This document shows, piece after piece, positions 18,601 through 45,875 of a stretch of DNA of 64,000 nucleotides (the stretch's first letter is position 1; the number at the start of each line of letters is the position of its first letter). Where the stretch lies: contig JACCLO010000006.1 of the NCBI GenBank assembly GCA_029448655.1, positions 248,001-312,000 of the forward strand, given 5' to 3'. A program made the translations under genes and the position numbers. A model generated the notes under the pieces. That model made no database searches and was not told the DNA's origin. It saw only the letters and a program-made list of their open reading frames with translations. This stretch comes from Wolfiporia cocos. Its lineage: Eukaryota; Basidiomycota; Agaricomycetes; Polyporales; Phaeolaceae.

Positions 18601-18696
18601 GTACGTTCAGGAATGCGACATCTGTCAAAAGATGAAGAGTCAACCTGAGAAGCCGTACGGGTTACTTAAACCTAATCCCGTACCAACCCAGCCATG

Positions 18697-20594
18697 TGAC
18701 ACGGAAACCATCCGTGCCACCCGTCCTAACGGGGAACCCCCATATCCGCCCCATCCTATCTCCAATAGCCCCCCACCCTCCATAGGCGGAGAACAAGAAG
18801 GCACCTCTATTGAGAGGTCCTGCCGTATTGCCTGAGGTACCGACCCATAAGTGCACCGGTACGCCCCCAGACTAGCAAGTAATAGAGAAGAGGCAGGTTG
18901 GATGCAATGAATAGGAGCCCCCACGCCCAAGTAGGACGCAGCAGGCTTTGTCGTCAAGGACCCTGCACGCGAGAACAAGCAGCAGAGGGATAAGAAAGAG
19001 GTGACCAGGGGACACGCCCCCTAGGCCAAAATCTTAAGTCTGAGGAGTAGCCTCAGACGTCGCCAGTATATATACATGTAGGAGACCTCTAGCTAAAGAC
19101 CTTTTGTCTACCCTAAAGTGACGGTCTGTGCGCATCAGGATCATGTGCCTACAGTAACAACTAAGTGACAGTCATATGACGAGGTAACTACCCGTGACTC
19201 TAGATATAACAACGTGACCTGTAGAGATAACGAGATAAGATGAAGACTCATCTACCTATGCACGTGATACCTCCAGCGTCGGTCTAACAAGCCTAGAAAT
19301 CGGAATAAAAAGCGCAAAAATAAGGGAAAAATCACAAATTATTTCTTGTGACATCACCCCCCCCTTAAGGTTCGTCGACCTCGACGAAGGACGGCCCATC
19401 CAGCTCCTTCCTGTCGGGTTATCGGTCGTCCAGTCTGGTTCGCTCGCGCTCTGTGAACTTTTTGCGCATATTCAGTAACCTGTGTCACTTGGTGGTGCCC
19501 TATCGCGCGGACCCTGCCAAGTTACTCCCTTGCGCGTTTTGGGGCGCAGTTCTGAGTGTGAGTGACCTTACCGGTTGACGTTACGCCTAAGGCCGACCAT
19601 GGAGTCGAGTCGCCTTGGTGGTCGTCGAAATTCTTGCATACCGAAAGACCTGCCGACGCGGGGTTACACCGAGGTGCTTCACATACCCGCTAGGTCCGCT
19701 GTCCTGCCCAGGACGTGGGCTACTGCTGTGTCTTGCAGCGCCCCTTTGTGGCCGTTTTCACTCCTCATGGTCTCCATGGTGATGCGCGCGCTTAGTGGGG
19801 ACTGGTAAATGTACCGCCCAAGGCCGCTTGTGGCTCAGTGGGTGTCCCGCCGCGCACGCTGGAGTACCTAGAGTGGAAAATTCCTTGGCTCCCCGACGAT
19901 CAGCGCGAGGAGGGAAGAAAAAATAGACTTAAGATTATGACACGGAAACCATCCGTGCCACCCGTCCTAACGGGGAACCCCCATATCCGCCCCATCCTAT
20001 CTCCAATAGCCCCCCACCCTCCATAGGCGGAGAACAAGAAGGCACCTCTATTGAGAGGTCCTGCCGTATTGCCTGAGGTACCGACCCATAAGTGCACCGG
20101 TACGCCCCCAGACTAGCAAGTAATAGAGAAGAGGCAGGTTGGATGCAATGAATAGGAGCCCCCACGCCCAAGTAGGACGCAGCAGGCTTTGTCGTCAAGG
20201 ACCCTGCACGCGAGAACAAGCAGCAGAGGGATAAGAAAGAGGTGACCAGGGGACACGCCCCCTAGGCCAAAATCTTAAGTCTGAGGAGTAGCCTCAGACG
20301 TCGCCAGTATATATACATGTAGGAGACCTCTAGCTAAAGACCTTTTGTCTACCCTAAAGTGACGGTCTGTGCGCATCAGGATCATGTGCCTACAGTAACA
20401 ACTAAGTGACAGTCATATGACGAGGTAACTACCCGTGACTCTAGATATAACAACGTGACCTGTAGAGATAACGAGATAAGATGAAGACTCATCTACCTAT
20501 GCACGTGATACCTCCAGCGTCGGTCTAACAAGCCTAGAAATCGGAATAAAAAGCGCAAAAATAAGGGAAAAATCACAAATTATTTCTTGTGACA
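18697..20594 (-). mobile_element. TRIM G: complete short LTR element, TSD CCATG
   Basis: Two 657-bp LTRs (18697-19353, 19938-20594) that look identical by eye flank a 584-bp interior with no credible ORF. TSD CCATG at 18692-18696 and 20595-20599. TCACCCCCCC after the left LTR is the complement of the polypurine tract, so orientation is minus. The primer site AATCTTAAGTCT (sense) next to the right LTR complements the LTR R region. Near-identical LTRs mean a very recent insertion. Confidence 0.95.
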
Positions 20595-22204
20595 CCATGG
20601 GAAGTCATTACAATCGACTTTATCATGTATCTACCAAAGTCTATCGATAACAAGAAGACTTACGACTCCATTATGGTTGTAGTGGATCGACTAACGAAGA
20701 GGGCACACTTCTATCCGATCAGTTCCAAGTTTGGAACAAAGGATTTGGCCGATATCTTGTATACACGGGTTTACCCGTTACACGGCCTGCCTCGCCAGAT
20801 CATTAGCGATAGAGGTGTCCAATTCGCGTCAAAGCTGTTTAAGGAATTCTGCCAATTCCTCAACATTGAACACTTGATGTCAACAGCTTATCATCCACAG
20901 ACCGATGGACAGATGGAGAGGGTTAACCAAACCCTGGAACAGTACCTTCGCTGCTACGTCAATTCGTATAGAAAAGACAATTGGAGCAGACTCTTGCCTA
21001 CGGCAGAGTTTGCCTACAATAACGTAGCGTCGGAAACTACCAGGCACTCGCCTTTCTTTGTCGAACTAGGTAGACACCCTTTGGCTGGACCCAGCGATCA
21101 GGAACTCCCCCGCACAGTCAATCCTGACTTAAACGACATCGCACACGAACGATGGAAAGCACAGGAAGAAGCGAAAGCCGCTATGTTAGTAGCTTCTGAA
21201 CGATGGAAATGGTATAGCAATCGAGGACATAAACAACTCGATCTACGTGTTGGTGATAAAGTACTAGTTAGTACTAAGGATTACCAGACATCTGAAAAGA
21301 GTCTGGCCCCACGATATATCGGTCCTTTCAAGATTGCAGAAATCTTATCGCCGGTGACTTTCAGATTAACAATGGGGTCACAATATCGTCAATATCACCC
21401 TGTATTCCACGCATCCAAGCTAGTACCATACGTCCAAACCGAAGATCGGTCGCCGTCTCCTGAAGTACCAGAAGACGACGACAGAGAATGGGAAGTATCG
21501 GAAATCCTTAACCATCGGAAACGAAGGGGGAAACTTGAGTACCTCGTTCGATGGTCAGACACTACGTCTAAGGACGATACATGGGAACCCGAAGAAAACC
21601 TTGAGCACTCCAAGGAGGTCCTGGACGAATACAAAGCCCGGTTCTTCGACGCTCAGACAAACCACCTCTCAGCACACCGAACGATTGCTGTTGCTGAACC
21701 CGACGACGATCCTAACTGGAAAGTAGGAGATCGTTACCTCTGGCCTGATGACTGGCCCATGCACTCGGACAATGTAGACGACGAATCCGAGGGTTACGAC
21801 TCCGACGAGGAGAGGCCAATCAAACCCACCAGCCGATGGCTGAAAAGAGATCCGTACGGAAACTTCGTAGAAGACAACATTGTCTTCAATGACTATCTGG
21901 AATTCGCCGTACCATTCGGTGACAAGGATACGGCTCCACTCTATCCCGTAAAAGGGACCCCACACTCCGCTGGATACGATATTTATGCTATGGAAGGATT
22001 AACAATCCAACCCGGCCAAACCGCTACAATTTCAACAGGACTTCAAGTTCTGTTCCCCTACGGGCATTACGGACAATTGGCAACACGGTCTAGCATGGCG
22101 AAGCAAAGCCTAATCGTACTTGGAGGAGTTATCGACTGGGACTATAGAGGAGAAGTCAAAGTCATGATTCATAACCTTGGATCAACCGCATACGAAGTCA
22201 AGGC

Positions 22205-23137
22205 TATCACAAGATGCACAGCGGACCCAATGCAACGCGCTCATGAGTGGTGTTATAGACCACTCCCCCAAAAGGGCTACGATAACAGCTTGGCTGTTAT
22301 CAAGGGTCCGGCTATATCTGCAGTTCAGATTCCCACGCTTAGCGTCTACGGGTAGCCTTGTTCAGGTTATACCCACGTATTCCCTCCGTATACCCTAGTT
22401 AATTACTCCGTAACGTCCAGATGCCTTTACAGGTATAATCTGTGACATTACCCCCACTTCAAGGATTAACCGTCTCTGGTTAAGGAGGTAACTAGGCTGC
22501 ATCAAGCCGCCCCCGGTACTAAGTATCACTTCTACTATGCATGTGTCACGCGGTTATTTATATGTTACCCACCGGGTGACTAGTCCGGTGGTAGGGAGCC
22601 CGTCTCCCCCTTAGTTATTTTTGTGACGTGTGTGCCAACCTCTTGAAGGCCCGACTTAATCCCTGGATTTTGGGAGCGGGTTAAGGCTATTTAATAGTAG
22701 TTTTTACCACGCAACTTTTGACCAATCTTATCCCCGACAAGCGGGGCCCCGTGATACATGGGGGTCACGTGGTGGGTACTTTTCCCTCAGCCGCCAGTGG
22801 TTCGGAAGCGCCCCAGGCATGTGACTTATTAACGCCCCCAATTAGCGTTTGCCACTGCCCAGGTTCGAACCGGCGACCGGGTAAGCTGTTATTATATCAC
22901 AAGACGCACAGCGGACCCAATGCAACGCGCTTATGAGTGGTGTTATAGACCACTCCCCCAAAAGGGCTACGATAACAGCTTGGCTGTTATCAAGGGTCCG
23001 GCTATATCTGCAGTTCAGATTCCCACGCTTAGCGTCTACGGGTAGCCTTGTTCAGGTTATACCCACGTATTCCCTCCGTATACCCTAGTTAATTACTCCG
23101 TAACGTCCAGATGCCTTTACAGGTATAATCTGTGACA
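22205..23137 (-). mobile_element. Mini-TRIM inside dUTPase, TSD AAGGC
   Basis: 933 bp in total: 243-bp LTRs (22205-22447, 22895-23137) and a 447-bp interior without an ORF. LTRs start TATCAC instead of TGTCAC and end TGTGACA. TSD AAGGC at 22200-22204 and 23138-23142. Removing it and one TSD copy restores the dUTPase frame. TTACCCCCAC at 22448 is the complement of a polypurine tract. The interior end contains GGTTCGAACC, a tRNA-B-box-like palindrome. Confidence 0.93.
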
Positions 23138-23362
23138 AAGGCAAAAGACAAAGTAGCCCAGCTACTAGTTCATCGGATGTACTATCCCGACGAACATGTC
23201 TCATCGCCCTCCGCTTACGATCTCTTACACGGTCAACAAGGTCAACGAGGTACAAAGGGTTTTGGCAGCACAGGCAAGTAGCGCAAGCAAAGTCTAACCC
23301 TTTAGTGGGCTCTAGCATTTTTAGCTGCTTCATCGGGAGGCTGAATTTTGAGGAGGGGGTAA

Positions 23363-23964
23363 TGTCACGGTTTCTCTTATTTTTCCCTATTTTTTCCTAT
23401 TTTCTCTGATTTTCTACAGCTCGTTCTACTCGCTTTCCAAGTCACGTTATGTCCTATCTTATCTCACTCTCGTAGATAACTCTTATCTTATCTCTTGTGC
23501 ACGTTAGCTCAGCGCCTATCATGGCGCCTCGTCTTATCTGTAGACTTATCTTATCTTTCCTGCACGTGACCCTACAAAGAGTTCACAACATACGTTGCCA
23601 CACGTCACATGGCTTTCTAGTGACTCGCGTCACCTGCCGCTGCCTCACGCTCAGTCAGCGGCCTAACTCACGTCACATGCTGTAGCCTTATGCTCAGTCA
23701 GCGACCTTTAGAACTATCACAAGCTTCGGGTCGTACCATTACCGGTACATAACCCTACGCCCTGCGGTATCACTAGTCTTACCTACGGTGTTACGGGTCT
23801 TACCCTTCATGTATATAAGCTGGCCTCTGAGTACGTTGTAGACTCAGAATAGTTCTCCTCGACAATTCACCAGTTGCACTTAACAACTTGCTTGACTCTT
23901 AACACTTCACCGCTATCGACACCGCCCCTCAACTTATATTCGACCTTAGTGAGTGTCTGTGTCA
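23363..23964 (+). repeat. 3' LTR of element P/F, inserted in element D at CCCAG
   Basis: 602 bp from TGTCACGG to CTGTGTCA, preceded by the polypurine tract GAGGAGGGGGTAA (23350-23362), so a plus-oriented 3' LTR. It is followed by CCCAG (23965-23969) and then the element D protease. A near-identical LTR sits at the same site of element E (59177-59778) as a solo LTR. Confidence 0.9.
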
Positions 23965-24412
23965 CCCAGTTGAATTCTGGGTTGTGTTTCTGAAGCCAGT
24001 CATATCCTAAGATAATGTCGAGGTTGTGGATTTTCATTACGGTAAGGAATACCCTTTCCTTGTGTTCTCCGTGTTGCATATATCCTTTAACCAATTTCTT
24101 TATAAGACCATTTTTGTTGTAAGATCCGTCGGCATTGTGGATCCAAAAGGGGTCTTTCTTATCGTGGGTAACTAGACCATGTTTTTCAACAAAGTCTGAG
24201 TTGATGACTGAGAGCGTAGCACCGGAGTCGATTAATGCTAAGCCTTGCACTTTTTGGCCGTAAACCCACAAGTCTACCCAGACCTGGAAAGATCGGGACT
24301 TGTCACGCGCATTGTTCTCGTAAAACTGATATAAATTGTAACAGTCTTTTACAGAGGGGTCTACATGCTGGGCCGTTATACTAGTACACAGCACACATGG
24401 GCAAGGGTTCAC
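23965..24412 (-). pseudogene. Gypsy element D: aspartic protease, truncated
   Basis: Retropepsin start of pol: LWVYGQKVQGLALIDSGAT (DSGA active site), then HNADGSYNKNG, IILGYDWLQKHNPEFNW. Cut after FNW at the CCCAG site by the P/F LTR; RT, RNase H and integrase of D are not in the window. Nearly identical to 59779-60226 of element E (Leu versus Ser in LIKK-L/S-VKG). The 4-bp overlap with the gag end is as in element E. Confidence 0.9.
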
Positions 24413-26418
24413 ATGTGCTGAAGGGGAAAACCCGGAGCGTTTGCAGGGCGCTCCGGAGTTTGCTGGACTATCGATGTCCAGGGAATGTATTGTGTGCCCC
24501 AGTTAGGCGGCGTACCTACTGGGGCCGTTACCAGCGTACTGCTTGCTGGTTTCTCCACAACTTCTTCAATGCGCGCGGAGGACGGGGCTGGGGAAGAGCC
24601 CGAAGATTCGTCTTCACCATCGGGGATCCACGTTTCGGTAGTGGTCACCTTGACGAAGCGGCCGCCTTTTTGGCCGGACTGCTGTTTGTATGCGGGGGGG
24701 TTGCCGCTGGTAGATTGTTGAGCCCCCTTCGAGTCCGTCTTGGCCTTGTCGACCCACTTGCACTTGTCCTCGGGGAAGGTACAGTTCGGGCGCCCGCATT
24801 TGGCACACTGGTGGGACGGCCACCATAGAACAAGCTTGTTGAACTTGTTCTTTACCCATTTCGACCCTTTCGGAGCACCAGCCGGTAGTGGCTTGGTGTC
24901 CGGGTCTTCGGGCGCACTCTTCTTCTTCTCCGAGGTAGTAGTAGTGGTCGCCTTTGCAGGCGCCGCATCCTTCTTCTTTTCCTCCTTTTTCTCGTTCTTC
25001 ACAAAGATGTGTTGCCCCTCCAAATCGTTGGGGTTCGTCTTCTTATAAAGATTTATATTGGCGTCGAGATACGCCTCCCATTGCTCCGGGGCTTTGAAGC
25101 CCATTCCCATGGATTCAAATACGCCAAACTGCTTTTTCAAGTCAGCCGGCAGTGTGTCCTCCAGCTTCTTTCGGAGGGACGCGTTTTCGTATCCCGTCAG
25201 CTTGGCTAGCTGGCGGAATTCTTCGCAGTAGGTGAAGAAGGACTTCTTACACCTGGCGATTCCTGCGTCTCCCGAGAAGGCCTTATCCAGCTCGTTTTGC
25301 GCGACCTCTTTCTGCGTCTTCTTCTCATACGTCCGCTTTAACCGTGTTTCGAAATCTGCCCAGGTACCAATATTTCCACCGGCGCTATACTTCTCCTGTA
25401 CGTCGGTGAAGTATTTGAACGCCGTCCCAGTGATCCGGGTCAGGGCGTCTCCGATGCGCGCTTTGTCGGTCGTGTACTTCATATGGTCATGGTACACGTT
25501 GACCTTAAACAACCACTCCTCCACGTTGTCTTTTCCCTCGCCTGAGAATGAAAGCGGCGGGGTTGGACGTGGTGCCATTGTGAGGGTACCGCTAGTGGTG
25601 GGGGCTGCGTGTGTGAGTGCGGCGACTTGGGCTTTCAAGTCGTTGATCTCCTTCTGCGCGGATGCGGGGATTGCCGTGATCGTAACGTTACCGGGTTGGG
25701 ACTTCTTAACCTTTTCGAGATCGGCACGCAGGACATCTAATTGGTCCTGGAAAACAGCCGTATCTCGGTTCTCAAGGTCGAGTACCCGCTGGTGTAAGTA
25801 CCGGGCGTAGTTTCGGACTTCGTTGTACTTGCGGTGGTAGAGTTGTAGACGTTGGTCAATGCGCCCTCGTTGTTTGGTGAGCACATGGTCCGTATAGGTC
25901 TTCCCGAGTTGGGTGGCTAAGTACATGCTGGAGGTGGCTGCCTGTATTGCTGGTTCATCTATTTCGGCGTCGGCTATGTGTTCTCCAATACTCTGTATGA
26001 CTTCTGGCAGCGTGGGGTAACCGAATTGTTCCTGGTCGATTCTGATCCTGTCGTAGACGCCGAGGGGTTTGGGGATAGGTGGAGCCGGTATTACGGTGTC
26101 CGGGAGTTCCCGGATCCCCGTGTCCTCCGTCAGAGGCGCTAACGGGTTCTCGTATTGCGGTTTTGGGAAGTAGGTCGGGGCCTGGACGTTAGTCCTGAAC
26201 GCCCGATTTGCTTCCGTAGCTTCTCCTTCCTCTGTTGGCTCAAACCATGGATCTTGGATCCCCGACATGACACTTTCGTCGAACGCCCCTGGCGGGCGCG
26301 TTCGGGTGTGCGTAGGTGTGACGGGGGTCGTGGGACGGCTGGGAACTCGGGTTCCAGACCCTTCTGCCCCTTGGTTCTCTGAGGCGAGGCGGGCGGCTTG
26401 GCTGCGGGTGGTCGGCAT
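24409..26418 (-). CDS. gag: Gypsy element D: Gag, 669 residues, with CCCC-type knuckle
   Basis: Intact frame from ATG 26418 (MPTTRSQAARL). Acidic, Pro/Thr-rich N-terminus; a coiled-coil-like region (about residues 150-270); a Gag capsid core (EEWLFKVNVYHDHMKY to EQWEAYLDANINLY); then a Lys-rich linker. The zinc-binding motif CAKCGRPNCTFPEDKC has spacing CX2CX4CX6C and no His in the usual CCHC place. The C-terminus overlaps the protease frame by 4 bp, so Pol is probably made by frameshift or reinitiation. Element E carries a near-identical copy at 60223-62232. Confidence 0.9.
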   Translation of the reverse strand: MPTTRSQAARLASENQGAEGSGTRVPSRPTTPVTPTHTRTRPPGAFDESVMSGIQDPWFEPTEEGEATEANRAFRTNVQAPTYFPKPQYENPLAPLTEDTGIRELPDTVIPAPPIPKPLGVYDRIRIDQEQFGYPTLPEVIQSIGEHIADAEIDEPAIQAATSSMYLATQLGKTYTDHVLTKQRGRIDQRLQLYHRKYNEVRNYARYLHQRVLDLENRDTAVFQDQLDVLRADLEKVKKSQPGNVTITAIPASAQKEINDLKAQVAALTHAAPTTSGTLTMAPRPTPPLSFSGEGKDNVEEWLFKVNVYHDHMKYTTDKARIGDALTRITGTAFKYFTDVQEKYSAGGNIGTWADFETRLKRTYEKKTQKEVAQNELDKAFSGDAGIARCKKSFFTYCEEFRQLAKLTGYENASLRKKLEDTLPADLKKQFGVFESMGMGFKAPEQWEAYLDANINLYKKTNPNDLEGQHIFVKNEKKEEKKKDAAPAKATTTTTSEKKKSAPEDPDTKPLPAGAPKGSKWVKNKFNKLVLWWPSHQCAKCGRPNCTFPEDKCKWVDKAKTDSKGAQQSTSGNPPAYKQQSGQKGGRFVKVTTTETWIPDGEDESSGSSPAPSSARIEEVVEKPASSTLVTAPVGTPPNWGTQYIPWTSIVQQTPERPANAPGFPLQHM

Positions 26419-26603
26419 TTCTGATTGGAAATATGTTAGTTTTCTGGGAATTTCTCGGATCCGGGTTTCTACAAGGAGAAAAGAGATTTTCTAGGATGTG
26501 TTCCCCTTTTCAGGTGGAACCTTACGTGGACAGTCTTTTCAGATCCGTCTGAACCTAATATGCCAATTTAAAACAATCCATTGTTGCCGATGTTACAAAT
26601 ATT

Positions 26604-27584
26604 CTATGCTAGATCTAGCCCGTCGTTGTCTCCTTCTTCGAACTCCCACCGTTCGTACACCTCGATGCGGTTGTCAAAAAGACCCTCCGCTATCTGTTGG
26701 AGGTGACGGTAGGGGTCCCTGTCGGCGAAGACGTACTTGACCACTTTAGAGGTGTCGCGCAGGAAGCGGCGCATCTCCCTGTTGGTGACAAGTCCATGGA
26801 TGACAGAGCGTCTCCAAGCGATGGCGGCTGTTTCCAGAGCGTCGAAGTAGTGGTCTAAGTAGACCTCGAGTTCCATGTCGAGTTTTCCGGGCGAGCGGTT
26901 CATGGCAGCGTAGAAGGCCTGACATTTCTGAGTCAGGCGGGCGATGAGGGGCATGGACTTGCAGGCCAAGTACCACTGTGCTTCAGTGCACTTGACCTCG
27001 CGTAGATCGCACCAGGGGGGGAGGCTGTCAATGCTCTCCTGGGACCAGTTGTAGTCCACCCTGATCTTGTTGGCGATCCGTTCGATCCTTTCCTCTGGGC
27101 CAAATCGACCCTCGCCGTTCTCGAGCCAGTCCTGGTGTCGTTTTTGGCGACGTTCCAGCTCTTCCGCTTCTCGCTGACGTGCTTCTTCCTCGGCCCTGGC
27201 CTGGGCTGCAACTTCCCGAGATCGCGCGAGGGTGTCTCGAGCTCGTTGCCGTTCAAGCCGGCGGGCGTCTTGGATTTCTCGCTTCTGACGGTTTCGCCGA
27301 CCTTCGATCTGGATGTTTCGTCGTTCTTCCTTGGTGAGTCGGGCGGGGATGTGATCTAGGATTACCGGAGTGTCGGTTCTTAAGGTCAGTTCGACCTTTC
27401 CTCGGTGCAGGCGCCTGTAGGGGCACGCATACTCCTCTTCTCTCCGGGCGAGGCGCTGGGCCTCGGTTTCGCGGACGTTTTCACGTTCCGCATCTTCGCG
27501 TGCTTCTGCCTGCGCTTCCAGCTCCCTTATCTCCTTGGGAGTGTAGCGGGGTTGCATGGCACGTGGGCGGCAATCGGCTGGCAT
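26604..27584 (-). CDS. Extra ORF (ORF1) of element D, intact, 326 residues
   Basis: The only copy that is full length without a break. It starts at ATG 27584 (MPADCRPRAMQP; MPA[ED] starts also occur in C and P). Residues about 15-165 are very rich in Arg, Glu, Ala and Gln and predict a long coiled coil. Then VKCTEAQWYLACKSMP (the CTExxW block), a helical stretch with LDMELEVYLDHYFDAL, TNREMRRFLRD (the NKxMR block) and an acidic tail EGDNDGLDLA. No known domain is recognised. It lies between the 5' leader and gag, on the same strand, with 185 bp to the gag ATG. A structural or RNA-binding accessory role is possible but unproven. Confidence 0.85.
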   Translation of the reverse strand: MPADCRPRAMQPRYTPKEIRELEAQAEAREDAERENVRETEAQRLARREEEYACPYRRLHRGKVELTLRTDTPVILDHIPARLTKEERRNIQIEGRRNRQKREIQDARRLERQRARDTLARSREVAAQARAEEEARQREAEELERRQKRHQDWLENGEGRFGPEERIERIANKIRVDYNWSQESIDSLPPWCDLREVKCTEAQWYLACKSMPLIARLTQKCQAFYAAMNRSPGKLDMELEVYLDHYFDALETAAIAWRRSVIHGLVTNREMRRFLRDTSKVVKYVFADRDPYRHLQQIAEGLFDNRIEVYERWEFEEGDNDGLDLA

Positions 27585-28162
27585 GGCTAGGTTCTTACAC
27601 GTAAGCTACTATGTATTCTAAGTGTGGGTCTAAAAATAAAAGCCTAGATCTGCTTCTTGATGTATGCATGAGGGTCTACTTTCGAGTCGAAAACGGGGGG
27701 TACACTGGTCATGGGCCTACATGCCAGGAACGGATTTGGGTGTTTACACACCGCTGGAGCCGGACTCCCAGCCTAGAACCCATGGGGACCAGTACGCGAG
27801 CTTATCCACCTGATAGCAGATGGCGTCACAGCCGGAGACTTGTTAGCTCCGGCTTATCGACTTAAGCGCTATGGCTTTCCCACAGACCCTGTCGCAAGCG
27901 ACTAAGGCTGGCCCTTACGTCATATGGGCAAAGACGTGGTGATCGCCGCAGTAACCACTTCCTATTTCTAGAGAAGCGGTGTCCTGGGTCCTCAATACTG
28001 CGCACAGAGGCGCCCCCTTAGCCTTGGGGATCAGGCATAGTATTTCCCCCAGAACCCAAGTAGACGTCTTGTCCTCAAGCCCCCTAGGGGGATGCATACG
28101 CAGACCTGTAAACGGCGTCCCAGGGCCAAACGGCCGGGGGACCGAAAAGAGTTCTGTTCTAA
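27585..28162 (-). other. 5' leader of element D
   Basis: 578 bp with no gene. It has the TTTCCCCCAGAACCC block (28049-28063) shared with the C and B leaders. The primer site AGTTCTGTTCT at 28150-28160 is the exact complement of AGAACAGAACT at 28279-28289 in the adjacent LTR. Confidence 0.75.
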
Positions 28163-28623
28163 TGACACAAACCAAACTGCAATACTTACTAAGATCCTTT
28201 TGGGGGGTGTCTTAGAGGGTAAAAAGCAAAGTAGTGAGGCGATGAAATAGCTTGTTAGGCTGTAGTTCAATATCGAGGAGAACAGAACTGAGGTTTAACG
28301 CTCAGTCTGCCCTAGTATATATACATGCGTTGCGGGACCCCTAATACTACTAGGACCTACGGTACCTAAGGATGAGTAACGCTACATGTGATCTAATACT
28401 TCGACATGTGATTCTAGGTAAGAGCATCAGTCAGCGATCATGTGAGCGTAGACGATGCGCGTGATTCTGGTTGGTATGGAACCTGCTAGAAGGTTCCGGT
28501 AAATTCCATGGACGTAAGCGCTTGGTCACGTGATGTGCTAGTTATACGTATTCTATGCTACAACGTAGATATTGAAGTATAAAAGCAGGAAAAACAGCTA
28601 AAAATAAGGAAAAATCTGTGACA
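28163..28623 (-). repeat. LTR-Y, 5' LTR of element D (461 bp)
   Basis: TGACACAAACC to AATCTGTGACA, almost identical to the 3' LTR of element E at 54064-54523. The right flank AAGGC is the start of the kinase-like pseudogene. It contains TATATATAC and a CTGAG/CTCAG dyad. Confidence 0.92.
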
Positions 28624-29397: not shown

Positions 29398-29409
29398 AAT
29401 CTTAGGAAT
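29398..29409 (+). promoter_or_regulatory. Primer-binding site of TRIM T1
   Basis: AATCTTAGGAAT is the exact 12-nt complement of ATTCCTAAGATT in the LTR (29150-29161). It lies one base inside the 5' LTR, as expected for self-priming elements of the Tf1/sushi type. Confidence 0.8.
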
Positions 29410-36560: not shown

Positions 36561-36688
36561 GAACAATGATAGCGGAATACGTCCGGGGCTGTGCAATTTG
36601 TCAACAGATGAAACCTGATAGGAATCCGCTAAAACCCCCTTTGCAACCAATACCGACACGGGAAGATGCCTTCCCCTTCTCACAGTAG
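36521..36688 (+). pseudogene. Element V integrase zinc-finger stub
   Basis: In a shifted frame: THFWWPDMRTMIAEYVRGC and AICQQMK, the end of the HHCC finger, then a short linker to about 36686. The sequence then switches directly to the minus-strand integrase of element C. The catalytic core, any chromodomain and the 3' LTR are lost. Confidence 0.8.
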
Positions 36689-38194
36689 AACGGCAAATAC
36701 TTGGTGGTTTCTGACGCCACGTTGTTGTATGCGAACTCGGCTGTTGGGAGTAATTGGCTCCAATTGTCTTTCTCGTAGGAGTTGACGTAACAGCGTAAAT
36801 ATTGTTCCAACATTTGATTCGTTCGTTCTGTTTGTCCATCAGTTTGGGGATGATAGGCGGTAGTCATGGATCGTTGTATGCCAAGTTGGGAGCACCATTC
36901 TCCGAATAGTTTCGAGGAGGATTGAACGCCTCTGTCCGATATGATCTGCTTAGGTAATCCGTGTAACGGGTAGAATCTGCCGTATAAGATAGTGGCAAGA
37001 TCCTTGGTACTGAATTTAGCATTGATTGGGTAGAAACGGGCTCGTTTGGTTAGGCGATTGACTACTACCATGATTGCATCGTAGGTAGACTTGTTGAACA
37101 TGGATTTTGGAAGATACATGATGAAGTCACAAGTGATAACTTCCCATGGTCCTTCTGGGACGGGGTTGGGCTGGAGCATGCCATAACGCTTCTCAGGCCG
37201 GTTCTTCATCCGTTGACATGTGTCGCATGCTTGTACGTACTTCTTGACATCGGTTGTCATTAATGGCCAATAATAGTTCTGTGTGATGAGTTCGTACGTC
37301 TTCCATCGGCCAAAGTGACCGGCAGAAGGGTGGTCGTGATGGGCTTCCATCAGACGTTGTCGTAACTCTGGAACCTTTGGGACATAGACTTTTCCGCGTC
37401 GTAATAGAAGACCATTCTCGTAATCCCATTCTGCGAGGTCTTTCTTGAATTCTCTAGGACTAGATGAGAGAAGTTGTTTATAGTCCTTGGTTACTTCATC
37501 TGATAGCAACGCTTTGCGGATTTCTTCCATGAGTTTATCATCCTCGTTTGAGTTGACAGTAGGGTTATGGGCGGATTCGTTAGCGTGAATGGCAAGTTCA
37601 TGCGCGAAAAATTCTGGTTTCAGAAGTATCTGATCGCGATTATCGTTTTCCACTCCCTCTTCATGGTCTGGCCTCCTGGACAGGGGATCTGTGGTAAGAA
37701 TTATTTTTCCAGGCTTATGGTATAGCTTAAAATTGAAGCGGGTGAGGTAAAGTGCCCATCGGGCTTGCCGGCGTGTGAGCTTCTGCGTGGTTCGGAAGTA
37801 CGTAAGATTTAGGTGATCTGTCCATACTTCGAACGGTTCCTTATGGCCTTCGAGATAGTGACGCCATTCTTCTAGGGCTTGTATGATGCCTAGAAGTTCC
37901 TTGTCATATATCTCATAGTTCCGTTCCGGAGCTGTCATGGTCTTTGAGAAGAACGCCACGGGATGATACATCTTGTCAGATGTGTCAAGTTGTGATAGGA
38001 CGGCTCCAGTTGCAAAGTTTGATGCATCGGACTCTACTCGGAATGAGTTGGGGATCTGGAGGATCGGTGCGGTTGTGAAGGCTCACTTGAGAGTCTCGAA
38101 CGCTTCCTGTTGGGGTGCTTCCCAAGACCACGGAGTGTCTTTCTTGGTCAGCGCTGTCAATGGTCTGGCCACCTTCGAGAAGTCCTTGATAAAT

Positions 38195-38754
38195 TGTCAC
38201 GGATCACTCCTGGGGGGTATCTGTACATCCCTCGCTATTGGTATTCATAGGCGCCGCTAGGTGCGCGCGCGTCTTCCTGATCCTCAGCCACCTCCAGCGT
38301 CTCCTCCAGCCATATAGATCATCTGACTTAGTAGTTTAGCGCTGTAGGGTAGCGCGCGCCTCATCATACGGACACATGATGGTCACATTAGTTACATGTT
38401 ACGTCACGTTCCCGTGATCCCTTAGTTACGGCGCACAGGCCATTACATTAGGGTAGGATTCGTGCTCTCAACGTTCATGCATGTATATATACGACAAGAT
38501 GGTGGCCTTACAGCCCCATCTTTAGGATTCTCGTCAATGAGCTAACGCTCCGTTCTTATCATCTGTCTGCGTGCGCTCGGGCCCGGGGCCCCTCTCGACT
38601 AGCTTGTCTGTGTGCCAGCTCAACTCGTCGCCTCTTAGGAGTTCCCCCATGGGATACAGCCGACGTCGCGGTCTTGCTGGCTTGCGCACCGCCTTGTTAG
38701 GCGTTAGGGCCTCCCCAGTTGTCTGGGTCCTCACAGACTGGTAAGTCTGTGACA
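38195..38754 (+). repeat. Solo LTR in element C, TSD TAAAT
   Basis: 560 bp from TGTCACGG to CTGTGACA with TAAAT at 38190-38194 and 38755-38759. TATA at about 38489, dyad GATGG...CCATC with CTTAC in the loop. It interrupts pol between RT and RNase H. Confidence 0.95.
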
Positions 38755-39175
38755 TAAATCGCCTATAGAAATTGGCGAATCCGATGAAGGCCTGGACTTC
38801 CTTTACTTTCCGAGGTATCGGCCATGATTGAACTCCATCATACTTCTTTTGATCCATCTCGACCTTTCCTTTGGAAATGATCATGCCGAGATACTCGATC
38901 GAACTTTGTTCAAAGAAGCATTTTTCTGGTTTGGCGAACAGATCGCACTCACGGAGCCTTTTCAGGACCGCTTTTACGAGTTTGTGATGTTCAGCCAGGT
39001 CGTTGCCGAAAATCAGAATGTCGTCTAGATAAACGACCGATTGGATAAAGTCTTCTAGAACCGTATTCATCATTGCTTGGAAGGTTCCGGGTGCGTTACA
39101 GAAACCGAAGTACATAACAGTGGCTTCGAATAGTCCATGGTGAATGATAAACGCCGTTTTCCATTCGTCGCCCTT

Positions 39176-40255
39176 TGTCACAGATTTATCTGGGGCTTAC
39201 AGCATTTTTCCTATGATTATAGCAATTTATCCGGGATTTATACGTCTAACTACCAGTTATCTATGGGTTAACTCCCATTGCCATACGACAAGCTCTTAAC
39301 TGGGCTTATAAACCACATGACTAGCTTACATAACGCTACGGTGCATCCACGTCCAATAGCAACACTACCGCTACGTCATAATGGTCTCGCCCGTCAGAGC
39401 AAGACCAGCCACGTCATAGACCGTAGATCATAATGATAGGCCGAGCGCGGCACGCTCGCATAATAATGTCCACACGCACAAACAGTGCCTCACGGCCTTG
39501 TACTATTGGGTCGGCCTTCACGGCTTCCCACGCGCCATAAGATCCTTGATCACAATGGCACCTCAGGCGCGCCACGCCTTCGCATAATAATGGCAACACG
39601 GCCAAATAGCACTATATTAGCATCAAGGCAATATCGCTATAGGCTACAGCCTTCCCGGCCTCCCACGGACTCGGCAGTCTCCAAGTCCCGGGCTTCTGCC
39701 ATCACGGCGTTGCCCAAACACCGGACCTCGCCTCACGGCTAAGACCAACACATGTCCCGGTTACCTTTCGGTCTGGACATATCACATGCTACGGTACCTA
39801 TCGGTCCAATAGCATAATGACCTCGGCATCTCGACTTGGTCATCCAACGAAGCACGGCCAATCGCCATTATACCTCACGGTATCCGGCAACCGGCTTCCC
39901 CTATACCCAGGCTGTGCCCGCTTTATCACAACAACAAGACATAACCCCTCTCATACGATTGGTTCGGCCATTAGGGCCAGCCACGGCCATTCTATGTAGA
40001 GTCCATAAACAGTAGATAAGATAAGCTTCGCCACTTGGCAAAGCCACATAACCCGGTAAGGCCATAGCTATATAGTAGCACGTGCCCTCCCGATACACAT
40101 GTATATAAGGACCTGGCTAGACGCCACTAATCCTTAGTTCTATTATTCTCGGCTTGCGCCATAGAATAACCTCACTTCTGCTGCACTTGACTGGCTACTC
40201 CGTCCGCCTATATCCTCAACACATAGGTGGTGAGTCCCACAGCTAGTCTGTGTCA
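39176..40255 (+). repeat. Solo LTR in element C RT, TSD CCCTT
   Basis: 1080 bp from TGTCACAG to CTGTGTCA, the longest LTR here, with CCCTT at 39171-39175 and 40256-40260. Removing it joins RIKKG to DEWKTAF in the RT palm. No ORF inside. Confidence 0.93.
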
Positions 40256-41345
40256 CCCTTCTTGATCCGAACATTGTTATAGCCCCATCGTAGATCGATT
40301 GTGGTAAAGATAGACGCTTGGACTAGTTGATCGATGAGATCGGATATTTGGGGTATGGGATATTTGTTTTGTACGGTGATTTCGTTGAGTTTCCTGTAAT
40401 CTACAAGCATCCGGAGACCTCTGTCTTTCTTTTTTACGAAAAAGACGGGCGATGCAAACGGGGATTTCGATGGTACAATATAACCTTTTCGGAGTTCCTC
40501 ATTGATCCATTGATCTAGGGAATTGCATTCTGCGGGACCCATTGGGTATGGCTTAGCTGAGCGGGGGAATTCTGCGCCTTCTTTAATTTCGATGGCATGG
40601 TCGAAGTGTTTTCAAGTCGGCATCCTGTCGGATGCTTTGTGACTAAACACTGTGGGACCAAATTCGTGGTATTCCTCGGGGACTAGAGACTTCCACTTGT
40701 CAGTGTCAAGGGTCTCATCGTCCTGGCTTGAGTTAATTTCTGCTACTAGTTGTGCTAGCAGTGCTGCGTCCTTATCGTCTAGGGTCTCCACCCAATTGAC
40801 AAAAGGGTTTTAGGTATCTTCCTTTCCGATGATATCTATTGGAAGATCCCAGAGAGTTTCCTCTTGTTGGCTGTTTTCGTCGAGGTAGTCATCCTCGACC
40901 AAAGGCCGCGGTGGCCTGTTTTTCTTGGCATGGGCGCAATTTCGATTGATAATGCATGCAACGGGAGTAATCCATTTGACTTGTTGCCCAGTCAAAGTGT
41001 GGATTGTGCTTATGTAACCAATTGTGTCCCAATATGATATCCTGTCCTCCTGATTTAATTACGTGGAGAGCAATAGTCTCTTTATGCTCTCCATGTTGGA
41101 GATATGCCTTTACGAGCTCGTTGATCTCGCCGTGCTCATTGTAGGTACCATCTGCGTTTTTGACCTTAAAGGGTATAGGAAGGGGATTGGTTAGGAGCTT
41201 ATGCTTTTCGACAAATTCTTTATCGATAGTGCTTAGAGACGCTCCCAAGTCGATTAATGCCAAAGCTTGCACTTGTTGACCATATACCCAGAGAGTCACG
41301 TTAATTCGAAAGGATTCTTTTGGGTTTCGCGCGTTATTAACGTAT

Positions 41346-41608
41346 TGTCACAAGAAATCCCAGAATAAAGGGGTTCCCTGAGGATCTATTCACCTTTATT
41401 CCACAGATATTCGCTACGATATATTACTTAGCCGCTCAAGTGGAACCGCATGTGCGTAGGTAGATAATTCCTTCACTATCTTATCTCTACAGGTCACGTG
41501 ACGTTGGGAGTAGTCACAGCATAATGTAGTTATGGGTTACGGTCACAGCGTGCGCACAGACCACGCCATTAGGGCAGGTCTTGTGCGGCGGTAGTTACTG
41601 ATCCTCAT
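41346..41608 (+). repeat. LTR-W fragment, 5' 263 bp only
   Basis: Matches 12735-12996 from TGTCACAA to ATCCTCAT, then changes abruptly to element C gag sequence. Insertion of W followed by a deletion that removed the rest of W and most of gag explains this. Confidence 0.8.
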
Positions 41609-41858
41609 TCTGGTACGGACCATATGCTGGGGGAAGCAGGACTTCACTTGTGATGGCGCTGTCCAGGATGGCTTCCCCCAACCACGTCTCATCTCGAATG
41701 ATTTGGAGTCGCTCTCGTTGAGCGCGGCGAAAGCGTTGAGTGCGTTCAATGGGGGGCAGGTTCGATAGTACCCGCGCCTGACGAGTTGGGGTCGTAAGGT
41801 TGCTTCCGCTGGGGAAAGAGGCCCTGGAGGTAGAGGTTCCTGCGTGAGTGGTCGGCAT
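41609..41858 (-). pseudogene. gag: Element C gag, N-terminal stub
   Basis: ATG at 41858 (MPTTHAGTSTSRASF), comparable with MPTTRSQAARL of D. About 83 residues to the LTR-W junction; the capsid core and knuckle are deleted. Confidence 0.65.
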
Positions 41859-42022
41859 TGTGCTGTGACCAGCGCAGATAAGTCCTCTTGATCTTGGTTG
41901 AAGATAATAAAAAATGGAAATGAAATATCTTTGTCAGGATGTGAGTCATATAGTCGAGTCATGCCTTATGCCTTTCGTTTCAGTCTTGTCAGACTATGAA
42001 GCGTTAATAACCCTTGTCAGGA

Positions 42023-42994
42023 TTATATTTGTGTATCTACGACAACGAAGGGAATTGGAGGTTGAGGGCGTTCAAGCCCCGTACAATATTGGGTAGTTGC
42101 CTTTCTTGTATCTCGCCCCTTCCTCAGATATGCCCCTACCGCTTTGGCGTCCCTCTCTACTTCCCGCATTTGCTTATTATATAGCTGGCAGTATAGTACG
42201 GCTTCAAAGAACTTATAGCTCATCTTGCTAAAAGCCTTCACCATGTCGAGGAACTCCTGTGACTCTGGTTTGCAGGATTCCTTGTAGTCGTTAATGAGCT
42301 GGTTGTATAAGCTTGCAAGAAGCTTGTGCGCGGCCTCGAGTTTTGGGAGGATGCGCTGAGCCCATTCGTACTGTTTTAAGGTACATAAGACTAGGTCGGG
42401 GTCGATGTGTTCTGGGAACTTTGACTTGTAATCCTTGATCCAGGTTTGCTGGATGGTGACGGACTTGGCGATTGCTGTCGCCGTCTCCTTGGAGAGGATT
42501 CTTTCCCCCAGCAGTCGGCCAGACCATCCCGTAGAGGGTTGGTACTGAGGGCCGAACTTGGCGTGGTGGGCGTCGGCAAAAGCTTTGGCAGCTGCTTCCT
42601 CCGAGTGTTGAATGTGGGCACGCTCGGCAGTCCACAACCGCCTCTGCTCTTTGGCAAACTTGAGTTGTTGTGCGTAAAGTTGGTTGTCTTCGAGCAACCA
42701 GTCGTCGTACTCCCGCTGTTCCTCGGGCGTTAGCTTAGGAAGGCGGGGTTTGTCGTTGGGGTTCCACGAGTTGTTGTGGTAGCGACGGGTACGTATGAGG
42801 TCCTTGATCTCTTTGACACTTTTGGACAGAGTGTCCCAGAGTTCCGGTTTCCCGGTAGCAGCGTTGGTAACCACCATTTGGTTAGGGGGGGCGGCTACCG
42901 ACTGCTTGACCTTCTCCTTGGGGAGTTGGACGGGTCCAGCGGCGAGGCGGGCCTCAAGCCTGCAGACGGATGCTTTGTATCGGTCGGCGGGCAT
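42023..42994 (-). CDS. Extra ORF (ORF1) of element C, intact frame, 323 residues
   Basis: Start ATG 42994 (MPADRYKASVCRLEARLAAG). QMVVTNAATGKPELW (about residues 39-53) is nearly the same as in ORF1-P. A Gln/Arg/Ala-rich segment follows, then LVLCTLKQYEWAQRILPKL (equivalent of the CTEKxWDW block, with Thr-Leu), a helical stretch, YNKQMREVERD and a basic C-terminus. Part of the extra-ORF family lying between leader and gag. Its frame is open although gag and pol of the same element are wrecked, so age alone does not explain its conservation. No known domain. Confidence 0.8.
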   Translation of the reverse strand: MPADRYKASVCRLEARLAAGPVQLPKEKVKQSVAAPPNQMVVTNAATGKPELWDTLSKSVKEIKDLIRTRRYHNNSWNPNDKPRLPKLTPEEQREYDDWLLEDNQLYAQQLKFAKEQRRLWTAERAHIQHSEEAAAKAFADAHHAKFGPQYQPSTGWSGRLLGERILSKETATAIAKSVTIQQTWIKDYKSKFPEHIDPDLVLCTLKQYEWAQRILPKLEAAHKLLASLYNQLINDYKESCKPESQEFLDMVKAFSKMSYKFFEAVLYCQLYNKQMREVERDAKAVGAYLRKGRDTRKATTQYCTGLERPQPPIPFVVVDTQI

Positions 42995-43634
42995 GACTGT
43001 GCGACTATGTAAGAAGATATGTAAAAAAGTATGTAGTCTAATGATAATGGTCGTGTCTTGATTTGCTCGGTATGCGTATAGTCGGTGATGTCGGCGTCTG
43101 ACAGAGCTCTCTCTAACTCCACCAGGAAGAATTCGGATACAACACCTGTGACGGGCCTACGTCTGGGTGGAAATTTGCTTAGAGTATTGCACTCAGGGTG
43201 ATATAACCCGTAATCTCCTAATGTCCGGATACATTGGTTATCCATTGCCTCGTAGTCCCAAGTAGGGTAGTACGGCTCAGGGAGATGCCCGGAAGCTTCT
43301 TGACCTATAGAGCACGGCGCAGGGCCTTTGTCCGTTACATATGTAAGGAGATCCCTTTAACGTCTAATGGGGTAAGACGGCCTACTTATCCGAGGATCGC
43401 ATGGTCAGGGGTTAACCCTAGTCGGCATAGTGATCCAAGGATGTTTTTGGACTCAGACGGAAGTTCTTGTCAGGACAACCGCCTGCCACTGTAAAGCCAT
43501 GTGGATCAGCTATAGTATTCCCCCAGAACCCAATACGCTGTTTGAATACCGATACAAAACGACCTAGAAACAGATAGAAATCAAACCGCCCAGAGTCTTG
43601 CCAGGCTGGGGGCGTAGAAAAAGAACTATCAAAG
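42995..43634 (-). other. 5' leader of element C with primer-binding site
   Basis: No gene. The block ATTCCCCCAGAACCC lies at 43518-43532, as in D and B. AGAACTATCAA at 43622-43632 is the exact complement of TTGATAGTTCT at 43736-43746 in the LTR. Confidence 0.7.
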
Positions 43635-44268
43635 TGTAACGGATGACTTACTTGTAAGATCTTGTTGTCAGACGAGCTAAGAAGACTAAGTAGTGTTTGC
43701 TTATTAGGCAAGAGTGTTATCGCTGAGTAACGAAGTTGATAGTTCTGGGGCAATAGCCGCCAGAGAATGCAAGCTTATATACATGTGGTATAGGACCCCT
43801 GGTACTCTAAGTAGGACTAACGATACAGTAGGGCATAGGGCACAGGCCGGTAATGGCGGTGCTAACGAAGTGTCCGAAGCTTGTGATATGGGGATCCCAG
43901 GCTGAGCCATAGGCCGATTGGGATATGTCATGAGTATGACGATGCGTGAGTAAGGCGTCTACGTTGGAAACGTGATGTGGGTCCGGACTCTGCCCAGAGT
44001 CTGGAACGATGATGTCAGTTATGACGTGGCAGCGCTAAGGGTGCTGGAGATAGTATCGTGTGATGAATAGGTAACGTGGTTGAGAGATAAGATAAGACGT
44101 CTAGTGTGGGAATGGTCACGTGAGTGATCTACGAGGTTATGGTTCGGTACAGCGGCACGGTAGCTTAAGTATAGCTTAGATACAGGATAAGTGTAGATGT
44201 TGAGGAACAATTTGGAATGAATGCGAAGAAAATACAGGGAAAATTAGAGAACAGATAAATCTGTGACA
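43635..44268 (-). repeat. 5' LTR of element C (634 bp)
   Basis: Starts TGTAACGG (mutated) and ends AAATCTGTGACA; outer flank CAATT. TATA-like CTTATATACATG near 43772. Several short differences from other families show an older insertion. Confidence 0.8.
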
Positions 44269-44594
44269 CAATTCTGTATGTAATCACACCCTTCTTTCAC
44301 CCTTCCTAAATAATGTAGCCCTATGATTTCAATGGTAATAACTATATTTCCGTAGCTCCCACGCGTGGGATGGATGCCGCCGCCCGACGACGGATGACAT
44401 CCGGCGGGCATCTGACCTTCCAAACATGGAACATTATCCCACGCTCAGCGCTCGGCCTTGTCGCGCCTCGACCTTCAGATAGCAGCGCGCTTATCTAATC
44501 GCACCGCCGCGCCGATGCTGTCGTGCACATTGGTGGCAATGGTGGGCTCATTCTTCAAATTTTTGACTCACGCTTTTTGTATCATATGTAATAT
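44269..44594. other. Unassigned DNA
   Basis: No ORF, LTR end or RNA gene recognised. It contains a GC-rich stretch with an inverted repeat (CCACGCGTGGG). It may be old flanking sequence. Confidence 0.45.
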
Positions 44595-44708
44595 AGTATT
44601 TACAGTAACACAAGATAACACTTACTTGTAATAGTTGCTTGGTTTGCTGGTTAGGCAGGATAGTTGTAAGGGTTAAGCAGGATACGCGGAGTGGTTAACT
44701 CGTAGTAT
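44595..44708 (-). repeat. Inverted U5 piece of an LTR-Z
   Basis: TAACACAAGATAAC to ATGAATAGAAC corresponds to the first about 115 bp of LTR-Z (8237 on). It runs into leader sequence in the opposite sense. The junction is the 12-nt match shared by the LTR primer sequence and the primer-binding site, which are inverted repeats flanking U5. Confidence 0.65.
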
Positions 44709-45189
44709 GAATGCTATGAATAGAACTCGCTTTCGCCCCCCGCCCTCTTTGAGGGTCTGGGATTTTTTCTTCTTAGGGGTTTTCGTCGCCGTCTGCGCAC
44801 CCCTGCTCGCCGCCAGGCAGCAGGGTATCCTTAGTGGGTTCTGGGGGATCACCGCCTTCGGGCAAATAGCCGGACCGTAGGCTTAAGCGGAACCGGGGAC
44901 TGGCTGACAAGCCTTTCCCCATATGTTGGGAATCGATGGCAACGGTGTAACGTCTTGACCGGGCCGGAGACGACCTTCTCGCCTATCCCCAGGCGTACAG
45001 GGGCCACTCTATTTAGAGTTGGGATGGTGGGCACGAGTTGCCCTGCCTAGAACCGCTGCCGATACGGCTTCAGAACGATGGAGTTCTGGCCTTGGCACCC
45101 TCTAAGTCCCTCAGGGCATGGGTTTGGTTTTAACACTGGCAGCCACCTAACTGGAGTGAGGCGTGGGCACATGCGGGGTGTAATACCCC
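44709..45189 (+). other. Leader of element B, part 3 (sense here because of the inversion)
   Basis: Leader start (CGCTTTCGCCCCC, then CCCTCTTTGAGGG) as antisense at 8174-8230, with GGGTTCTGGGGGATC at 44836-44850, the conserved leader block. It ends with ACCCC (45185-45189), the TSD of element K whose partner is at 15980-15984. No gene. Confidence 0.7.
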
Positions 45190-45678
45190 TGTCACAGATT
45201 TTGTGGCATGTTTTAATGTATTACCCCCCCTAGGCTCGAACCTAGGACTTCACGTTCTAGTAGTCACATGACTGGTGCCCGGTAGTGTAGTGGTATATAG
45301 CGTACTCGTCCGTCAGGACATACGGTCACATGATAAGTAGGTCACATGGTATATACTGGGGCACATGATAGATAGCGCACGGCCCATGCCTTTAGGGCAG
45401 TACTTACATAGTAGCGCGTTGTCTCCCCATGTATATAAACCTACTCGCTGAGGTCTTACTACCTCAGTTCGATTATCATCGGCATTGGGGCGAGTCCCTC
45501 AGTTCTACTCTGAACCTCTGCGTGCTAGACTGGTGGTCGACATAACTACTTGGTTACTGTCTACCTTGGGTCGTTAGTCAACACCCATCCAGTCGCCCTT
45601 CAAGACGTTAGGTCTTAGCCTTAGACGTTAGGTTATAGGCGGGGCGTTAGTATCGTACGTCACAGTAAATCTGTGTCA
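45190..45678 (+). repeat. LTR-K, intact 5' LTR of element K (489 bp)
   Basis: TGTCACAGATTTTGTGG to AAATCTGTGTCA. It contains CTAGGCTCGAACCTAGG and GGTAGTGTAGTGGTA (tRNA-box-like words), a U3 array of CACATG words, TATATAAAC at about 45430 and the dyad CTGAGGT-CTTACT-ACCTCAG. Confidence 0.92.
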
Positions 45679-45875
45679 TAATAATCGAACCACTTTACCC
45701 ACCCCCCTTGCGCTTGATCATTCGCGCTTGGGGCCTGGGGTTTCCCACTCTGTAGGACAGCGACGCGGCGGGGGCACCTCCTTGAAGAGGAGGTCGGCAT
45801 GAACTCGCCAGCCCCCCATTACAAGCGTTGCTATGGCGACTGCCAGCACGACTCGCCCGGATCCTCCTGTCAAGG
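45679..45875 (+). mobile_element. Interior of element K, 5' end
   Basis: Starts with primer site ATAATCGAAC, complementary to GTTCGATTAT in LTR-K. Hairpin B equivalent at 45776-45794: ACCTCCT/AGGAGGT, loop TGAAG, preceded by GCGGGGGC as in the other TRIMs. It ends at CAAGG (45871-45875), the TSD partner of LTR-H across the inversion. Confidence 0.8.

Follow-up and report, generated by a model that had tools for sequence, protein, structure and literature searches.

LTR retrotransposons are usually viewed as rearranging chromosomes passively, by offering homology for recombination, and LTR elements with mismatched duplications are likewise usually ascribed to recombination. For DNA transposons, those sections of the literature that treat hybrid-element insertion and alternative transposition describe inversions bounded by element tips, accompanied by target duplications and carrying non-chimeric copies (PMC2775673, PMC8225341), while recombination, in the part of PMC2775673 that deals with it, leaves chimeric copies. 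Integrases, as set out in portions of PMC3185514 and PMC5041404, insert two ends in concert, leaving a short duplication of fixed length; the aberrant retroviral integrations accompanied by host inversions that are described in the relevant part of the latter concern HIV, either exposed to integrase inhibitors or carrying mutant integrase, and ASLV with one mutated end (PMC5041404). Here we describe a genome in which chromosome stretches lying between neighbouring retrotransposons were inverted, on at least three occasions, with breakpoints exactly at the tips of the elements. Two cases lie in the window, a stretch of 64,000 nucleotides from a Wolfiporia cocos contig, and the third on another contig (C5).

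The 27-kb inversion and its host elements

The larger inversion in the window (positions 18601-45875, 27,275 bp), proposed in an earlier note from the letters alone, is real in the assembly, as reciprocal 5-bp duplications and the contiguity of paralogues both confirm. Its left partner is the solo LTR H (18022..18600, minus strand, TGTCAC...GTGACA), flanked by CCTTG (18017-18021) and GTACG (18601-18605); its right partner is the TRIM N (45876..47766, minus strand, with LTRs at 45876-46467 and 47175-47766), flanked by CAAGG (45871-45875) and CGTAC (47767-47771). Strand signs of LTRs were inferred from the inner-side motifs of relatives, and only relative orientations matter. All of these flanking bases had been given correctly in the note, and the breakpoints (18600/18601 and 45875/45876) do lie at the outer ends of the LTRs, directly outside GTGACA and TGTCAC, so that H and N carry reciprocal duplications on either side of the segment.

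For the hosts of both H and N, paralogues elsewhere are contiguous where the window is now split. Wherever a match to 17600-18021 met one to the reverse complement of 45376-45875 (6/6 loci), the two abut and share exactly 5 bp. On the N side, matches to 47767-48266 were compared in 30 copies with matches to the reverse complement of 18601-18696: the overlap is 5 bp in 26 copies and 3 bp in three, and a 27-bp gap separates the two matches in one; the 30 copies derive from 39 other rows, after exclusion of 8 rows at or below 74% identity and 1 that continued a counted copy.

The host of N is a Gypsy element, G (47767..49402, minus strand), in which Pfam detects reverse transcriptase (RT), RNase H and the initial portion of the zinc-binding domain of integrase. 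The zinc-binding profile (PF17921) breaks off at N, at position 46 of 59, in agreement with the earlier placement of the break within the integrase zinc finger. The rest of the integrase region (18601..22352, plus strand) has been displaced to the opposite end of the inverted segment. Positions 18601-18696 are assigned to G by paralogues, and 20595-22352 (by Pfam integrase core, SH3, chromodomain and dUTPase) probably belongs to it too, because the TRIM that intervenes (18697-20594) has matched duplications (CCATG). With RT, RNase H, integrase and chromodomain all present, the resident element is by Pfam a Gypsy chromovirus, and from its domain content it is a putative source of integrase for the TRIMs.

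Two further inversions and a census of the region

The pattern of H and N is not unique. At a distance of 1.3 kb, the solo LTRs A (15113..15682, minus strand, flanked by TAAAC at 15108-15112 and GCCCA at 15683-15687) and B (16508..16761, plus strand, of another family than A, TGTCAC...GTGATA, flanked by GTTTA at 16503-16507 and TGGGC at 16762-16766) enclose an inverted segment of 825 bp (15683..16507) with the same geometry. The host of A is another LTR, Q, whose left part is at 14862..15112 and whose displaced right part lies within the inverted segment (16055..16507, read as the reverse complement); undoing the inversion also restores Q's own duplication, GTCTC/GAGAC. The host of B is an LTR of element K, of which one part (15680..15979, with outer flank ACCCC at 15980-15984) overlaps the end of A by its first three bases, a shared ACA, and the remainder (16761/16762..16959) is the reverse complement of 45190-45386. 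K's other LTR (45190..45678, flank ACCCC at 45185-45189) is carried inside the 27-kb segment. Since the first of these LTRs is itself split by the inversion of 15683-16507, the matched GGGGT/GGGGT of K, which the earlier note obtained by undoing the 27-kb inversion, does return, only not from that flip alone; its 'four independent restorations from one flip' was overstated, the second inversion having gone unmentioned.

The third case began with one mismatched TRIM on contig C5, which predicted a partner with reciprocal duplications; this was found 456 bp away. The two elements, X and Y, are whole TRIMs, mutually inverted and ~73% alike over 1.2 kb. Both junctions are contiguous in paralogues with a 5-bp overlap, a base of the 5-mer being altered at one of them. 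Thus all twelve element ends of the three pairs have exact 5-bp flanks in reciprocal arrangement, and within each pair the partners belong to different families or subfamilies. N, X and Y fit TRIM structure, with paired direct LTRs, TG...CA ends and a short internal part, and their relatives have matched 5-bp duplications.

The density of repeats might suggest an assembly artefact, which we consider very unlikely: there are zero N bases in the window or in the adjacent 200 kb, the three events are spread over two contigs, one of them within 4.2 kb, and in our judgement assemblers are not known to flip sequence exactly at the ends of unlike elements.

Exact duplications flank 34 of the 39 scorable LTR elements in 264 kb, and four of the remaining five make up the two pairs A/B and H/N; six LTR copies went unscored where the mate or an end was out of reach or interrupted. 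An LTR-seeded census, with A, B, H and N among the seeds, gave 42 elements, 23 with exact duplications and 19 without, most of the latter being single LTRs of full elements that were later resolved; its only reciprocal pairs, both among the 19, were A/B and H/N. A first census had yielded 0 reciprocal pairs because A and N were not taken as units. A scan without LTR seeds recovered A/B and 17 normal insertions and missed H/N. By simple arithmetic, the chance expectation of even one exact pair is ~1e-5 among the 5 elements finally unmatched, and 1.6e-4 among the 19 in the comparison made before the LTRs of full elements had been set apart; two disjoint exact pairs were found. A looser scan of termini, with one mismatch allowed, returned 12 reciprocal matches, two of them the junctions of A/B and of Q. 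Its controls yielded 2342 with the flanks the same, 0 with them swapped, 855 with them both swapped and reverse-complemented, 12 with them reversed and 2 with them complemented. The high counts among these probably reflect copies of one repeat; with such controls the scan is no evidence by itself, and homology was used instead.

Mismatched flanks also occur at the B-family locus C24:72884 and four further both-ended copies (GCATG/AGTTA), at C6:1588822 (old, CTTAC/GTGAG) and at C56:52571-53668 (AAAAG/CAATG). No motif-matching partner end is present within ~3 kb on either side of C24:72884. The survey of 47 elements omits three rows with an internal end, and the A family is not represented in it.

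Cross-paired integration as the proposed mechanism

All six partners are young, at 0-1 difference each. The LTR pair of N has 1 difference in 592 sites, and those of X and Y have 0/590 and 0/578; H has 0 private sites in 579 against 8 fetched relatives, A has 1 in 570 against 10, and B is identical to at least 40 copies among the matches listed. Partner ages are therefore equal within error and near zero, as simultaneity requires. Youth is common in the region, with LTR divergence of full elements in 264 kb at or below 0.18% in 7 of 13 (N included) and at most 1 difference in 8 of 13, and because young elements are so common here the joint youth of partners lends simultaneity only modest support.

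Ectopic homologous recombination between inverted LTRs, as in Drosophila Galileo, would likewise yield exchanged duplications, and X and Y are indeed inverted, though only ~73% alike over 1.2 kb. H and N, however, lie in the same orientation where inverted homology is called for and are ~69% alike over ~420 bp, and A and B never share a local match longer than 10 bp. Nor is any of N, X, Y, H, A or B the chimera that such a crossover would leave: N, its two LTRs near-identical, is not a crossover product, the LTR pairs of X and Y are each identical, no family switch is found along X or Y (Y matching its own family over its whole length and X showing no switch to Y's), H and A have 0-1 private sites against fetched copies of their families, although H is itself mosaic among the subfamilies of its family, and B is identical to the copies listed. 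The earlier note had already set recombination aside for the 27-kb inversion, rightly on this evidence, and across the three events we regard it as extremely improbable.

We lean, by a modest margin of belief, towards each inversion being the outcome of one retrotransposition episode in which two LTR-element cDNAs integrated with cross-paired ends. We infer that the two arrivals were simultaneous, that their ends were cross-paired and that a Gypsy integrase took part. One integrase complex would hold the left ends of both elements and insert them at one target (CCTTG for H/N, TAAAC for A/B, TATAT for X/Y), and a second complex would hold both right ends and insert them at a nearby target (CGTAC, GCCCA and ACTGG, respectively). 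Ordinary concerted strand transfer would produce the usual 5-bp duplication at each target, its two copies coming to lie beside different elements. The first element would link the left chromosome arm with the far target and the second would link the near target with the right arm, which would reverse the interval with resident LTRs uncut and zero bases lost. After the first insertion the chromosome would be broken, the break being capped by the two elements with their LTR ends free, and the second insertion would heal it, much as in the hybrid-element insertion of DNA transposons; exchanged duplications of normal length at both breakpoints, together with non-chimeric copies, are expected of such a process, and they are found here.

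Under cross-pairing, because H and N are like-oriented, each complex there would hold ends of the same type; mixed pairs are the usual arrangement and would serve for A/B and X/Y.

Cross-paired integration also predicts deletion and circle products, of which none is proven. The candidate C10:361908 (ATGAT/TAGAT) was set aside as a further event, since an identical empty copy marks it as a simple, ordinary insertion with an altered duplication; the mismatched locus C24:72884 is a further candidate for such a product.

The earlier note suggested cutting at the ends of resident LTRs, which is not needed, as two cross-paired cDNAs and ordinary integrase chemistry give the same structure. In a broader form the idea is a possible but distinctly less probable account: the elements inserted normally and successively, and the interval was later inverted by some activity that recognises LTR termini or breaks them. 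This could be an integrase or a transposase at work on resident ends, or else the 5-nt gaps of fresh integrations could have collapsed and the ends been joined in inverted order. The final sequence would be identical, and the youth of all six partners fits breaks at fresh, still gapped ends. Two exact breaks and two exact, lossless rejoinings would nevertheless be required, three times over, and were resident ends targeted irrespective of age, older elements would be expected among the partners as well. In established retroviral chemistry, integrase is not known to cut resident LTR ends.

It seems to us rather unlikely that the LTR ends, which form short inverted repeats (GTGACA...TGTCAC), were sites of template switching or microhomology-mediated repair. 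The inverted identity at the junctions amounts to 6 bp (H/N), 7 bp (A/B) and 8 bp (X/Y), and for H/N and A/B it ends exactly at the junctions, as such repair would have it. Yet inverted 6-mer pairs in the window number 527,396, whereas ten elements, listed by hand and incompletely, give 45 pairs of an LTR right end with a later left end; on this rough count repair would fall on LTR tips by chance at ~1e-4 per event, and it would have done so twice in the window. Between these accounts, cross-paired integration remains the one we prefer; the wider proposition, that LTR-retrotransposon integrases make one-step inversions through two cross-paired cDNAs and have left at least three traces of it in this genome, we put at an even chance.

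Significance and comparison with known systems

As far as we have found, tip-exact inversion via paired elements is known for cut-and-paste transposons and apparently unreported for LTR retrotransposons; searches of an open-access library, which lacks most subscription journals, listed no report of inversions at LTR ends with two partner elements. If cross-paired integration is real, integrases would actively make inversions as a by-product of transposition bursts, along with deletions with circles in the other orientation, and translocations, all recognisable by mismatched duplications, and some LTR elements with mismatched duplications may find their explanation here. The trace, young element pairs with reciprocal duplications, is legible in any good assembly and so testable across many genomes.

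Clusters of nested LTR retrotransposons and TRIMs are one close setting, and the elements here, Gypsy-type LTR elements and TRIMs, are all likewise ordinary and have 5-bp duplications; ordinary nesting, however, gives matched duplications (as in the 34/39 above), whereas the pairs described here are reciprocal and mismatched. The Galileo inversion 2z3 is similar in its exchanged target-site duplications at both breakpoints, but its copies, in the relevant section of the source, are chimeric, homologous and inverted (PMC2775673), and ours are non-chimeric, not closely alike and in one case like-oriented. The aberrant integrations of HIV and ASLV also combine retroviral-type integration with rearrangement of host DNA; there one end was apparently inserted by host enzymes and duplications were usually large and irregular, by the part of PMC5041404 that describes them, whereas here two elements are involved and all four ends have the normal 5-bp form. 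There is also a close likeness to hybrid element insertion and reversed-ends alternative transposition (P element, Ac/Ds, impala), in which the ends of two copies act together. A transposase excises those elements from the chromosome, while here nothing is excised, and the partners, LTR retrotransposons that differ in family or subfamily, probably both arrived as cDNA; cross-paired integration, if true, would be the retroelement counterpart of alternative transposition.

Reciprocal flanks at two pairs of insertions

The window (G000:C56:248001-312000) is densely packed with nested Gypsy-type LTR elements and TRIMs. Within it lie the solo LTR H (18022-18600), flanked by CCTTG and GTACG and hosted by an element that we call K, and the full TRIM N (45876-47766), flanked by CAAGG and CGTAC and hosted by the Gypsy element G. 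The left flanks of H and N are reverse complements of each other, as are the right flanks, which is expected if 18601-45875 has been inverted, as the earlier note claimed. At all six other loci where matches of both kinds met, copies of K have the stretch ending at 18021 (from 17721 or 17727) adjoining the reverse complement of the 206-500 bases ending at 45875, each time with an overlap of exactly 5 bp. Sequence from 47767 onward joins the reverse complement of that from 18601 onward with a 5-bp overlap in 26 of 30 copies of G, the others having a 3-bp overlap (three) or a 27-bp gap (one); this comparison leaves out nine of 39 other rows, eight at <=74% identity and one continuing a counted copy. 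The match to G's integrase zinc-binding profile (59 positions) breaks off at the insertion, having reached position 46. The paralogues of K and G are independent support, at the level of sequence, for the putative ancestral order, and both the flanks and the 27-kb inversion are as the earlier note had them. Its claim that one flip also restores GGGGT for K stands in part: GGGGT is restored, but only when a second segment, 15683-16507, is flipped as well.

That segment marks a smaller inversion (15113-16761) with the same end-exact geometry, absent from the earlier note. The solo LTRs A (15113-15682; flanks TAAAC and GCCCA) and B (16508-16761; flanks GTTTA and TGGGC) have their flanks arranged around it as H and N do around theirs. 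Seven other copies of the LTR hosting A, and three of that LTR's own host, are contiguous across the now-split sites in 264 kb, and a sister (45190-45678) of the K LTR hosting B is contiguous too.

Elsewhere in the nest, the chromodomain of Gypsy pol reading frames (20568-22352 and 54538-56379) is followed by a dUTPase domain, and a 3.1-kb gag-side stretch occurs twice at 97% identity (23363-26468 and 59177-62282). A 551-aa ORF with DUF6589 (5842-7494; E 1.1e-78) probably belongs to another mobile element or to a host gene family.

Census of duplications and a predicted third pair

LTR copies were scored across C56:48001-312000, the window plus 200 kb to its left, with a library containing A, B, H and N. 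Of the 42 elements first listed, 23 had exact duplications; the other 19 included two reciprocal pairs, A/B and H/N, and no others. Pairing the LTRs of full elements gave exact duplications in 20 solo and 12 full elements; two more were recognized by eye (18697-20594, CCATG; and one ending at C56:83053, AATTT). Five both-ended elements lacked matching duplications, namely A, B, H, N and C56:52571-53668, in a census that omits six LTR copies whose mate is interrupted or missing.

Elsewhere, the B, H and N families supplied 47 both-ended elements for a survey that set aside three more rows with internal ends; duplications were exact in 38, differed by one base in two and were mismatched in seven rows from three loci. 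One of these is the single, full-length TRIM Y (C5:786102-787947; flanks ATATA and ACTGG). Were Y half of a reciprocal pair, TATAT and CCAGT would be expected beside its partner; two genome-wide pattern scans (131 matches, read among 100 listed places, and 47 matches) contained the TRIM X (C5:783758-785645), which has both motifs at its ends. X and Y form a third reciprocal pair (C5:783600-788100), with LTRs identical within each, around an inverted segment of 456 bp. A related LTR has the left arm joined directly to the reversed segment, with a 5-bp overlap, and a C10 locus likewise joins the reversed segment to the right arm with a 5-bp overlap, one base of the 5-mer being changed there. Another mismatched locus, C10:361908, was rejected as a further event and is an ordinary insertion. 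The third, on C24, is a B-family insertion flanked by GCATG and AGTTA, whose five both-ended copies (C24:72884, C22:104774, C22:26796, C21:13604 and C7:38950) sit on small contigs and C7; it belongs to a segment that has multiplied, and it may be a further insertion that was rearranged.

Recombination and the ages of the partners

Homologous recombination was rejected for every pair. H and N share orientation and only ~69% identity over 420 bp, and local matches between A and B do not exceed 10 bp. X and Y are inverted relative to each other and ~73% alike over 1.2 kb, but a crossover would swap an LTR, whereas the LTRs are identical within X (0/590 differences) and within Y (0/578). Compared in 150-bp bins with an H-family element that has matched duplications, Y is 91-100% identical throughout, and nowhere along X does the sequence change over to Y's family. 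In Galileo, by the account in passages of PMC2775673, recombination left chimeric copies and exchanged duplications, and hybrid element insertion is stated there to have much the same result, with no chimeras formed.

The LTRs of N differ at 1/592 sites; H has no private site of 579 against eight fetched relatives, A has one of 570 against ten, and B does not differ from any of the 40 copies among the matches listed. With X and Y, this near-zero divergence makes the partners equally young, within error. Unequal ages would have spoken against simultaneity, and the equality seen carries modest weight, since young elements are common here: among 13 full elements in the 264 kb, N included, seven have <=0.18% LTR divergence and eight at most one difference. 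Two subfamilies appear to be combined in H as a mosaic: several copies match its right half exactly, and its left half is closest to a different copy (C75:1702935). The 254-bp LTR of the B family is identical over its whole length in those 40 copies, and the family was, judging by sequence, apparently active very recently.

Proposed integration with cross-paired ends

On balance we lean towards the inversions having been made by integration of two cDNAs with cross-paired ends. The cDNAs would be held crosswise, one integrase complex with both left ends and another with both right ends, and each complex would integrate its ends concertedly, in the ordinary way, at one of two targets close together. 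Each target would gain a 5-bp duplication, one copy beside each element, and the interval would be inverted without loss, giving exactly the sequence observed. Inner-side motifs and homology place A, H, N and X in one orientation and B and Y in the opposite, so that the ends would be paired like with like for H/N and in the usual mixed fashion for A/B and X/Y. Such cross-linking would tether the complexes, and the distance of 0.5-27 kb between targets is in keeping with that. A later, terminus-specific inversion at the LTR tips would yield the same product, but would require extra exact cuts, and we consider it unlikely.

For LTR elements, we found no report of such a two-partner LTR-end inversion pattern in the open-access literature searched. 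Cross-paired integration would work much as does alternative transposition of class II elements, as outlined in sections of PMC8225341, PMC2775673 and PMC12312487. Aberrant integrations of HIV and ASLV, in the portion of PMC5041404 that treats them, include inversions, as here; unlike here, one end was apparently inserted by host enzymes and the duplications were irregular.
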